Shown here: one piece after another, positions 827 through 40,048 of the stretch
Layout of the letters: the number at the start of each line of letters is the position of its first letter
How positions within the stretch are numbered: the first letter of the stretch is position 1
NCBI GenBank assembly: GCA_902509965.1
Contig: CABWZP010000009.1
Coordinates: 1 to 40,048, forward strand
DNA: 40,048 nt
Reading direction: 5' to 3'
Source: an uncultured SAR86 cluster bacterium
GTDB lineage: Bacteria; Pseudomonadota; Gammaproteobacteria; Magnimaribacterales; D2472
The notes under the pieces: model-generated
The model's input: only the letters and a program-made list of their open reading frames with translations
Database searches by the model: none
What the model was told of the DNA's origin: nothing
Made by a program: the position numbers and the translations under genes

Positions 827-861
827 ACATACAATATACTGTATAAATATACAGTAGTCAA
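827..861 (-). promoter_or_regulatory. sigma-70 promoter with embedded LexA (SOS) box
   Basis: Read on the minus strand, TTGACT (861-856) and TATATT (838-833) are separated by exactly 17 bp. The palindrome TACTGTATAAATATACAGTA at 837-856 fills the spacer and touches both hexamers. It contains CTGT-N8-ACAG, the gammaproteobacterial LexA consensus, and differs from the E. coli ideal by one central base. The predicted transcription start (seventh base after the -10) coincides with the A of the ATG at 826. LexA bound here would cover both promoter elements. The only gene downstream in the right orientation is the 77-aa one; the cupin gene ends at 865 and is upstream of the site. Confidence 0.88.
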
Positions 862-37500: not shown

Positions 37501-40048
37501 AATCTTTGTATTTATAAGGTAAGCCTTTTAGTTCGAGCACAACTGCATCCAAGTCGAAGTTTTCTCTATTTGTGTATGCATCTATTATTTTATTTTGAAG
37601 ATATTGTGCATTATCCCAATTAGCATTGATGTATTGCATATTTGAGTTTTCAAGATCTGAGGAAGTCTGATATGTTGTCATTTTTTGTGTAAATAAATTT
37701 TTAGTAGCATCAGCCAAACCATCGCAAGTATCTACTTGGATATCATAATTATTTGCATCAGTGCTCATGCTTGTGACCACGTCTTCACCATTATCGAGAC
37801 GGCCTTTTGGGCTAATCTGTAACTGTTCCCCAAAAACGCAATCTTTTTCACGAACAAGTACGCCGTCTCTTGTTTGCGTACTCCATCTTCTGTTATCTTC
37901 TATAAAAAATGAAATATCATCTATTGACGAGTAGCTAGGATTCAAGAAATATGTCATATTTTTGTAATCTTCAGAAGCATCACCAAGTTTAGATGTTGTG
38001 TAGTCTGTAGTAGTACAATTTTCAGGCTCTGTAATACATTTATAATGTTTTACTTCTCCATCTATGGAGAGTTTGGCACCTTTAGCTCTTATAGATTCTT
38101 CCGTAAACCAACCGGCGCTATTTGCCTCAGTTTTATAAACAGTAAAGAAATCTAAGGGAAGCAGTTCGAAATTATCATCCGAGAGGATAGTATTTATTGA
38201 TTCATCTTCTAATGTAAGATTCGTATAAATATTTTTGTTATATTTGGCAGTAAGATCTGCATCAATTTGATCTTGAATTAATTTAAAGTATGGTAAGAAA
38301 GACCCTATTCGTTGCGCCTTGGTTTCGTTAATAATGCTGTTTGAATTACCTGAAATATAATCAGACACAAGATCAGCAAGACTTACACCAAAGCTTGATT
38401 GAATAGTTTCAACAATTTGGTTTATTTCGTTTGTAACGGATGATGCAATTGAGTCACCAACACTTTGACAACCTTCAGCAACAGTGAGGTCCTCTACAAT
38501 AGAACTATTTTTCTTTGCATTTATTATTGACTGTGAAAGTAGGTCTGTAAATGGTGTAATTACAATAGAACTATTACCTCCAGCATCATTAATTGAGGGC
38601 AATATCATCCTAAAAGCTGTTGTTACTTCTCCAAGTGATCCATCTATTGCTCCAACAGGAACTGCTGCAACTATAGGTCTATTCTGAAGACATTCATAAA
38701 GAGAATCGTCATCGGTGCCAATAAGGAATGAACCATTGTCTTGAGAAATGGTAGAAAGCTCTCCAGGATCCTTATTGAAGTTAAAGTTTTGATCAATAAA
38801 AACCTCTGCGCCGCTTATATATCCATCAATGACTTTACCTACAAATCTGTTTTTACCCTCAAAAACAACTTTATCATCCCAGGAATTAGATTTGATGTCT
38901 GATGCAGAATAGTTATTTATATTTTCAGCTTTATCTTTAATAAAAATATAATCTACATTGTATGTACCAGATGGATACTCAAAAGGCAAAGCAAACGTGT
39001 GAACATACTCAGCAGCTGTTAAAACAAATTGTTCAGTGGGAAAATCCTCATCAATTTGAGTAACGCCATCTTCATTTGTAAGTCTTATATATATTCTTTG
39101 TATTGGAGTCTGTTGTGCATCAGTCAAAACTTTTACTTGAATATTTTTTCTATCAAAATCGCTGTTATCGTATACAGGATTTAAACTCAGCGATAGAATC
39201 TTAGGGGCTTGGTCATCAGCAATATCGTTATCTAATATCCATTTATTATTTATTCCAGCATCACTTAATTGTTGATTAGTATACGTAATTTTATTACCTG
39301 CAAGATCTTCAATAATAAACCTATCAATTAAATAATCTCCAGAGGATGCATTAGGGTTTAACTCTATTGCAAAAGATACTGTGCCATCATCATTAATAAT
39401 GCCGATATAATCTGTATCAGCACCTCCAGGGAATTTAATAAAAACCCTAACCTCTTTTAAATTTTCTTCAACTATAGTTGCATTAAAAGAGACGGAAATA
39501 TTGGTTGCATCATCTCCATCATTTCCTGTAATTGAAAAGTCTGAAATTGATTGAAGTACAGGATTTACAATATCTTGACGTGAATTTTGCAAACTAACGC
39601 TTGATTCAAAGCCTTTAGACTGAATAGTAGATGCATTGATAATTAAATCATCAAGATTTCCTCTTGTAATCCTTAAATTTCTAACCTTATAAGTTCCCGA
39701 AAGCGAGTAAACAGGTAAATCATGTGAAATATTCCAATTTATACCATCATTCGTTCCAATTCCGGTATATAAGAATTCTTGAGCCCCATCACCAAAATCA
39801 GTTGAATCTGGATTAGATGCAGTTGGATACTCAATTAATATCTGAATCTCTTCTGCTTTTGTTAATGAATCGATTTGCATTGAAATATTTAATTCAGGGC
39901 TGGATGTATCAGTACCATCTACTGACAATAAATTAAAATATATTAGATCTTCATCAATATTTTGAACTGAAACATTTGTATTATCTTCTGTTGAAGCGGA
40001 AAAATCATAACCAGATTGTGACGCTGAACTATCATCAGTAACAGCGAT
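34559..40048 (-). CDS. giant repeat-containing surface/exported protein, N-terminus outside window
   Basis: At least 1829 residues, open to the window edge; the internal TTG near 39928 is not the start. From the visible N-side: three Ig-like repeats (to 38840), then two tandem modules of about 535 residues (37232-38839 and 35594-37195), then a C-terminal region of about 345 residues. The last 90 residues resemble a Calx-beta-like strand set, ending LTVQDD. Each module opens with a Ca-loop-like segment (D-x-N-x-N-x-x-x-D-x-G-E), as in SdrD B-type domains of adhesins. An acidic, Asn/Asp/Ser-rich make-up and few Cys fit an extracellular protein. Function is probably adhesion or matrix; no enzyme motif seen. 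Confidence 0.85.
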   Translation of the reverse strand: MAVTDDSSASQSGYDFSASTEDNTNVSVQNIDEDLIYFNLLSVDGTDTSSPELNISMQIDSLTKAEEIQILIEYPTASNPDSTDFGDGAQEFLYTGIGTNDGINWNISHDLPVYSLSGTYKVRNLRITRGNLDDLIINASTIQSKGFESSVSLQNSRQDIVNPVLQSISDFSITGNDGDDATNISVSFNATIVEENLKEVRVFIKFPGGADTDYIGIINDDGTVSFAIELNPNASSGDYLIDRFIIEDLAGNKITYTNQQLSDAGINNKWILDNDIADDQAPKILSLSLNPVYDNSDFDRKNIQVKVLTDAQQTPIQRIYIRLTNEDGVTQIDEDFPTEQFVLTAAEYVHTFALPFEYPSGTYNVDYIFIKDKAENINNYSASDIKSNSWDDKVVFEGKNRFVGKVIDGYISGAEVFIDQNFNFNKDPGELSTISQDNGSFLIGTDDDSLYECLQNRPIVAAVPVGAIDGSLGEVTTAFRMILPSINDAGGNSSIVITPFTDLLSQSIINAKKNSSIVEDLTVAEGCQSVGDSIASSVTNEINQIVETIQSSFGVSLADLVSDYISGNSNSIINETKAQRIGSFLPYFKLIQDQIDADLTAKYNKNIYTNLTLEDESINTILSDDNFELLPLDFFTVYKTEANSAGWFTEESIRAKGAKLSIDGEVKHYKCITEPENCTTTDYTTSKLGDASEDYKNMTYFLNPSYSSIDDISFFIEDNRRWSTQTRDGVLVREKDCVFGEQLQISPKGRLDNGEDVVTSMSTDANNYDIQVDTCDGLADATKNLFTQKMTTYQTSSDLENSNMQYINANWDNAQYLQNKIIDAYTNRENFDLDAVVLELKGLPYKYKDLNQARAYANDAAGDRVYLQYTLRDSSNNNTVENHSISIHENPDDDEYSKLELNSDGALIETAKSTGQQARDDLFNAFKNSAGYGGENFIGTDSVKDNRVPIQGKTIDGYISGANVFVDVNFNQRKDAGEYSAVTDSSGVFELRVDQSDLSCINARPIVADVPVGAVDSTLGVVTEAYQMILPSKNDAGSNAIVISPFTSLLTQAIIKGKDEADLSQDLTVTEGCAAVGDAVAEKISSQVSSLLSDIENTFGITWSSLISDFIALNADSGNITEEIAQKVAAFFPYYKKIKDEIAVELSTRYSKDLTPNVSLSKDSLDAILSQGQFTQLPLEFFSVYKTNTNAQGFYNIDEISSTGATVSSDGSLKRYLCTLSDAADCEISGLSLNGVANASKNYNRQVNINNDNFSVDGVVGNINIRGRDSRGVRNEDSTPESYCESEETIQFVGPQDSKGLQMEYRYGFGRGVNNLKDCSLLPNYGPSISLRIEKQGRGVNFPDTAPTWAIQFGVNNQGTTRLTQSKIYNIIDNENLDPEALIKEVALIPAAFSEIDQMRQLLSYGEGVYYYYSPNTSVDYDSGETFKSYTLQASSAPRDDQYYVNECTRDGCNDIGDNLFGQAARDAMFNIINGSAYDYDGFIGESAPVSNILFEYESSGVKFIDRLIDGKDRDYRVYPRLNTTSGWIDASLVGSEISKASIDAFINGSYTTNTKFNLGLNVDAPYTSVQEFNLKIFSNSEYSTSSEYLELIVELKIETLSSGDVQVTWLDQGKVVFKFVDDDVSIIKNVVNERGDITRSIPKGSYTFEDFDFLKSLLDKVRDQFGSSELQLIKDFFKNGSNYSYKIDLGGYAILDDYDQSSSIIAGTFGIADSPVNSVYSYYLPIIFGEGTETDICFDTAWPAEEDITFNVKPIYRNKPGFMTPEEVNFSSNNVTIEKGSNQKCLVFSSPLDDELQERQEFIEFEIDTIINAKSGRSIPTRLTVQDD
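35594..37195 (-). repeat. module B of the giant protein (about 534 residues)
   Basis: Starts GKTIDGYISGANVFVDVNFN, then PIVADVPVGAVDSTLGVVTEA, YQMILPSKNDAG, ISPFTSLLTQAII, TVTEGCAAVGDAVA, LPLEFFSVYKTNTNAQGF, and closes with QAARDAMFNIINGSAYDYDG and FIG. The length to the closing FIG differs from module A by two residues. The central 150-200 residues are much less alike than the first 280. Confidence 0.85.
37232..38839 (-). repeat. module A of the giant protein (about 536 residues)
   Basis: Starts GKVIDGYISGAEVFIDQNFN, then PIVAAVPVGAIDGSLGEVTTA, FRMILPSINDAG, ITPFTDLLSQSII, TVAEGCQSVGDSIA, LPLDFFTVYKTEANSAGW, and closes with QQARDDLFNAFKNSAGY and FIG. Matching blocks recur in the same order in module B, so this is an internal duplication at protein level with clear divergence at DNA level. 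Confidence 0.85.

Follow-up and report, generated by a model that had tools for sequence, protein, structure and literature searches.

The 40,048-nt stretch of DNA analysed here (the window; contig CABWZP010000009.1 of GCA_902509965.1) belongs to a metagenome-assembled genome (MAG) of the SAR86 cluster, designated G000, and the public relatives whose proteins are 78% identical also come from the SAR86 cluster. SAR86 bacteria are among the commonest in the surface ocean, where they live in strong sunlight with a streamlined genome. On the minus strand of the window, a promoter, a LexA operator and the start codon of a 77-aa open reading frame (ORF) are packed together downstream of a cupin gene (Table 1). 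A preliminary description of this DNA had listed TTGACT, a LexA palindrome in the spacer, TATATT, six nucleotides and ATG, and each of these elements was found at the position given; the tight packing also holds, except that the 36 bp quoted for it comes nearer to 38 if the ATG is counted.

Table 1. Features of the 77-aa ORF and its upstream region (window coordinates).
Feature	Position	Strand	Basis or remark
-35 hexamer TTGACT	856-861	minus	read in sequence; conserved among homologs
17-bp promoter spacer	839-855	minus	encloses the LexA 16-mer CTGTATATTTATACAG
LexA core 16-mer CTGTATATTTATACAG	839-854	minus	
LexA operator 20-mer TACTGTATATTTATACAGTA	837-856	minus	fills the 17-bp spacer; pattern scan and conservation
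-10 hexamer TATATT	833-838	minus	first two bases are also the last two of the 20-mer operator
6-nt gap GTATGT, -10 to ATG	827-832	minus	length constrained, sequence free
ATG start codon	824-826	minus	
Predicted transcription start (A of ATG)	826	minus	position 7 past the -10 hexamer; genome-wide -10 peak at that spacing
77-aa ORF	593-826	minus	SAR86-only family; homologs, codon bias
QLAMF, last five codons	596-610	minus	beta-clamp-binding-like pentapeptide at the extreme C-terminus; Q conserved; motif class
Cupin gene	865-1395	minus	38 nt upstream of the ORF, same strand

The operator 20-mer differs from the consensus TACTGTATATATATACAGTA by the single mismatch originally claimed, and a site with three or fewer mismatches, of which one was found, would be expected by chance only 0.01 times in the window. 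LexA repression of the gene would be expected to be tight. A second match to the looser pattern CTGT-N8-ACAG (CTGTTATCGTATACAG, 39162-39177) is far from the 20-mer consensus and probably arose by chance. The promoter had been described as near-ideal for sigma-70, and TTGACT-17-TATATT does score 10/12, but in AT-rich DNA like this a score that high is no rarity (2 comparable sites found, 3.0 expected from shuffles), and the weight we give it therefore derives from its conservation among relatives and not from the score. A weaker promoter, TTTAAA-16-TATATT (9/12), overlaps the first with its -10 within the LexA box and would yield a leader of ~13 nt. The 20 nt before the ATG consist of the end of the operator and TATATTGTATGT and, as had been pointed out, hold no Shine-Dalgarno sequence; the anti-Shine-Dalgarno CCTCC is kept at the 16S end in SAR86 relatives, and recA has AAGGAG. 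A search for RNA elements at the locus found none, and the fold of the mRNA is weakly non-random (z -1.9).

A SAR86 gene family under LexA control

A profile search found homologs of the 77-aa protein in 71 genomes of family f1 and, weakly, in four genomes of family f4 (E around 1e-4). The f4 matches, found by profile only, are too weak to stand alone; they are independently confirmed because every one of them starts at a LexA box, the last A of which is the A of the ATG. A class-wide search sampling 370 gammaproteobacterial genomes yielded no match outside SAR86. A 95% identical copy in a MAG labelled Flavobacteriales (NYWQ01000094.1) probably reflects a mislabelled or contaminated SAR86 contig. 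A phage origin was also considered and set aside as unsupported, with 0 relatives in viral contigs.

An ORF this short might be a chance frame, with the LexA box serving something else, and the absence of any Pfam, NCBIfam or PHROGs match would agree with that. The comparative data refute it, however, and leave it a negligible probability: all but one of the 71 f1 homologs are uninterrupted, conservation is evident at the protein level, and the distance from the box is fixed. Furthermore, in comparison with the closest species whose homolog could be read, substitutions fall 11/9/35 on the three codon positions, a third-position bias from which we conclude that the frame is coding. In one f1 genome (G028, C3:109474-109716), the LexA box is kept and the homologous frame has five stops, a probable pseudogene. 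The neighbourhood, with transporter-like and rhodanese-like genes downstream (named by eye), is kept in several genera; the gene directly upstream differs between genera while the unit from box to ATG stays.

If the operator is functional, the genome should encode LexA, and the preliminary description had proposed looking for the gene. A single copy of lexA is present in G000 (PF01726 at G000:C2, E 4.6e-25); its product matches E. coli LexA over the full length (E 1e-62), and the alignment covers the recognition helix SPNSAETHLRALEKKG, the Ala-Gly cleavage site VAAGSP and the Ser/Lys positions, so that the gene is, as judged from its sequence, intact. The companion suggestion, a genome scan for CTGT-N8-ACAG, was carried out and proved uninformative alone, returning 5 matches compared with 8 in the control; for lack of enrichment, this loose pattern was abandoned in favour of the 20-mer, which finds four strong boxes in the G000 assembly and none when the pattern is reversed. 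These boxes front lexA, umuDC, recA and the 77-aa ORF (umuC, umuD and lexA confirmed by Pfam, recA read from sequence). At lexA itself (L041:2600-2660, minus strand), the box CTGTATATATATTCAG is followed by TATAAT and, 11 nt on, by the ATG, with a predicted leader of ~5 nt.

The same picture extends to the relatives. Genomes of family f1 hold about four strong boxes each, against 0-2 for the reversed pattern, only part of these boxes having been assigned to genes. The 22 f1 relatives with the 77-aa gene have four boxes in 19 cases, five in one and three in two; in eight f1 genomes where the gene is broken or was not found there are two to four, and the near-complete genomes of f1 in which the gene was not detected (G015, G024 and G027) have three, that is, one fewer. 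A LexA box with two or fewer mismatches lies upstream of all 59 distinct homologs that could be read with their upstream DNA. SOS control of the gene, as first proposed, thus draws on an intact lexA, a box before every homolog read and the missing box in near-complete genomes that lack the gene, and sequence and comparison together place the 77-aa gene with lexA, recA and umuDC in an SOS regulon of four loci. We found no relevant paper on LexA or the SOS response in SAR86.

Promoter architectures and the transcription start

The upstream regions of these 59 homologs fall into two architectures, A (28 sequences) and B (25), with six in neither (the four from f4 and two outliers); the counts, here and for the protein motifs below, are raw and ignore shared ancestry. 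In architecture A, that of the window, found in genera g1, g2, g4, g5, g6 and g7, the box lies within the promoter spacer, TTGac/aT adjoins it and the -10 overlaps its end. The -35 element directly upstream of the box, TTG[A/T]nT, has T in 100%, T in 96%, G in 75% and A in 64% of the 28 sequences, and the -10 averages 5.5 of 6 matches to TATAAT. From the -10 to the ATG there are exactly 6 nt in 19/28 and 5-9 nt in 28/28, with varying intervening bases. A constrained length combined with a free sequence is what a leaderless start predicts, and the mRNA of the 77-aa gene is therefore probably leaderless.

It is also conceivable that the transcript carries a leader, short or long and without a Shine-Dalgarno sequence, either because TTTAAA-16-TATATT is active, as its 9/12 score would allow, or because the gene is transcribed mainly by read-through from the cupin gene, which is possible given that it lies 38 nt upstream on the same strand. 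We consider this rather improbable. The -35 of the internal promoter is unconserved, its position averaging 1.6-1.7 of 6 matches; conservation is found instead in TTGac at the edge of the spacer and in TA[AT]T past the box. Genes upstream vary by genus while the box-to-ATG unit persists.

Probable leaderlessness is not a property of the whole family, however. Architecture B, found in 25 sequences of g8, g9 and g10, has an invariant TTGAC 28 nt before the box and TTAAAT at the box edge, which would place the start within the operator and predicts a short leader; some of these leaders contain a Shine-Dalgarno-like AAGGA. In another homolog (L026, G011:C1:734548-734794), the only ATG in frame close to the start falls within the LexA box itself (TACTGTATATATGTACAGTA), 7 nt past a TTTAAT -10. 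Leaderlessness of the gene, as predicted here, is thus specific to particular lineages, and since three sister genera use a shifted promoter with a predicted leader, it would be inessential to gene function. The leaderless transcript first predicted for this gene hence gains support from the exact 6-nt spacing and the genome-wide peak described next, with the restriction that sister genera probably differ.

The same spacing is over-represented elsewhere in SAR86. In stretches of G000, G001 and G005 (L156-L175, L181-L190) we surveyed 263 ATG starts that have enough upstream space for a promoter, taking the longest ATG frame as the start, a crude choice. A TATAAT-like element lies exactly 6 nt before the ATG in 16 cases (3.1 expected, P about 2e-7) and 5-8 nt before it in 31 (12.3 expected). 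Starts inside operons in the window's genus are without the 6-nt peak. At that spacing E. coli has 0 cases compared with 0.5 expected, and two other gammaproteobacteria show a weaker excess at 5-8 nt (9 compared with 3.7), so the peak may not be exclusive to SAR86; small samples from f2 and f3 SAR86 genomes show no excess. Leaderless starts are probably a minority class in SAR86. Transcriptome studies have reported 18 leaderless mRNAs in E. coli and 10 in Klebsiella (PMC3415461), 33 in Salmonella (PMC3293720) and 10 in Alteromonas (PMC5864184), and the initial remark that such genes are unusual in Gammaproteobacteria agrees with these 10-33 per genome, but within SAR86 they look commoner than was assumed.

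The protein, its C-terminal motif and possible roles

The 77-aa protein has no convincing match among Pfam, PHROGs, NCBIfam or PDB sequences. AlphaFold2 predicts a head of three helices (about residues 12-48) and a disordered linker; the chain ends in the motif YRQLAMF. In the better of two models (53 sequences, G012 homolog as query, pLDDT 73), the helices span residues 12-46 with blocks near 90, the linker falls below 50 and the C-terminal end rises to ~77. Fold searches with both models (pLDDT 67 and 73) gave no usable match, which should not be taken as a sign of a new fold.

Beyond the head, conservation is concentrated at the C-terminus. All 26 aligned homologs have Q73, and the chain ends in QLAMF in the window's genus and elsewhere in QLELL, QLELF, QLELPF, QLEFSF, QMEFSF, QPELL or QPELI, so that both five- and six-residue forms occur. 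This class of Q-motif ends 53/55 family members and 0/720 SAR86 ORFs, a contrast that is overstated in that the class was defined with the family sequences already in view. The published beta-clamp consensus, Q-phi-x-[LM]-[FL] or Q-phi-x-[LM]-x-[FL] (PMC13254535), is matched exactly by the window protein and by 12/54 members in all (QLAMF, QLELL, QLELF, QLELPF), compared with 0/720 background ORFs; the other 42/54 deviate, having P or M as the second residue, F as the fourth or I as the last. In f4, a good motif is missing from most homologs: one has QKDLF, and others end in NSSISF or VEQKN. On balance, the motif suggests that the 77-aa protein binds the sliding clamp.

Taken as a whole, the explanation we somewhat favour over the others combined is that of a four-locus SOS regulon containing a leaderless gene whose product acts at the sliding clamp, the protein being most likely a lineage-specific SOS effector at that site. 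LexA bound in the spacer would cover the -35 to -10 region and shut the promoter; upon DNA damage, LexA would cleave itself, and transcription would begin on the AUG or no more than about 2 nt away from it, producing an mRNA to be read without a Shine-Dalgarno sequence. In the product, of 70-80 aa, a flexible linker would join a small helical head to a C-terminal peptide, which most likely docks in the DnaN ligand pocket. It is tempting to speculate that at the clamp it slows the replicase, as a checkpoint would, or helps hand the fork to Pol V (UmuDC), thus serving as a damage-response effector in a lineage with no SulA homolog found (PF03846 in 0/61 genomes of the order, the E. coli control being positive).

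The absence of SulA from the order might also be read as a sign that the gene stands in for SulA, SidA or YneA as an SOS inhibitor of cell division, acting on the divisome and using its C-terminal motif to bind another partner. Many studied SOS regulons contain such an inhibitor, and the situation in family f2 gives the idea some appeal. There, the fourth LexA box shares bases with the ATG of a protein of 61-62 aa (L137, L138 and L140; G037 C13:123394, G052 C15:15242 and G040 C1:900721) that has one hydrophobic segment, as do small SOS division inhibitors known elsewhere (PMC6851548, PMC4211646), as well as an IDRLITS.Y motif. This protein belongs to no Pfam family and is unrelated to the f1 protein; its segment is probably membrane-spanning, making it a candidate small SOS division inhibitor. 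The f1 protein, by contrast, has no hydrophobic stretch when its sequence is read by eye, its model showing three short helices, and its C-terminal motif resembles that of clamp ligands. It has no Pfam match that would place it with SulA and no single transmembrane segment of the SidA/YneA/SosA type, such as the f2 protein appears to have, and no sequence or fold similarity to any such inhibitor was found. We therefore regard a division inhibitor as unlikely for f1, while still the main rival to action at the clamp.

Only three LexA boxes were found in f3 genomes. It seems that lexA, recA and umuDC are retained in every SAR86 family, with one further effector slot that is filled or left empty; the effector in f1 and f4 is a helical protein, for which action at the clamp is favoured. 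A more ambitious reading, which we put forward tentatively and hold to be rather less probable than the clamp explanation itself, is that SAR86 has its own SOS effector, a leaderless, LexA-controlled and clamp-binding replication checkpoint that has replaced the division inhibitor in its slot, and that the occupants of this slot are unrelated small proteins in different families.

A regulon reduced to about four loci shows which parts of an SOS response are indispensable, and one of these loci encodes an unstudied protein. This product is more interesting than the layout of its promoter. If it does bind the clamp, it would represent a type of stand-alone SOS replication factor of which our literature search found no example. 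The promoter signature, for its part, makes leaderless translation directly testable in a marine gammaproteobacterium.

Comparison with known systems

The SAR86 regulon shares with E. coli, the reference for LexA control in Gammaproteobacteria, the operator CTGT-N8-ACAG and its overlap with a sigma-70 promoter, as at lexA, recA and umuDC, and also the type of LexA, whose cleavage site and Ser/Lys positions are kept. It differs in that the operator of the 77-aa gene fills the spacer and the ATG follows 6 nt past the -10, and in that a SAR86 genome has only about four LexA loci, of which the fourth holds a gene of a new family. Like the leaderless mRNAs of lambda cI and Tn1721 tetR, that of the 77-aa gene would have its ATG at the predicted +1 and no Shine-Dalgarno sequence; unlike them, it belongs to the SOS response, in a lineage where the leaderless spacing is over-represented, and its start is a predicted one.

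With clamp ligands such as Hda, Pol II, Pol IV and RecB (QVEMEF), the SAR86 protein has in common the pattern Q-hydrophobic-x-hydrophobic in five- and six-residue forms, placed in its case at the end of the chain. In contrast to known clamp ligands, it is a stand-alone SOS protein of 70-80 aa with a head of no known family, and its binding is predicted. The small SOS checkpoint proteins SidA, SosA and YneA, together with SulA, are likewise short single-gene effectors and occupy a comparable slot in their regulons; the f1 protein departs from them in having neither a hydrophobic segment nor detectable similarity, and in a motif that suggests action at the replisome and not at the divisome.
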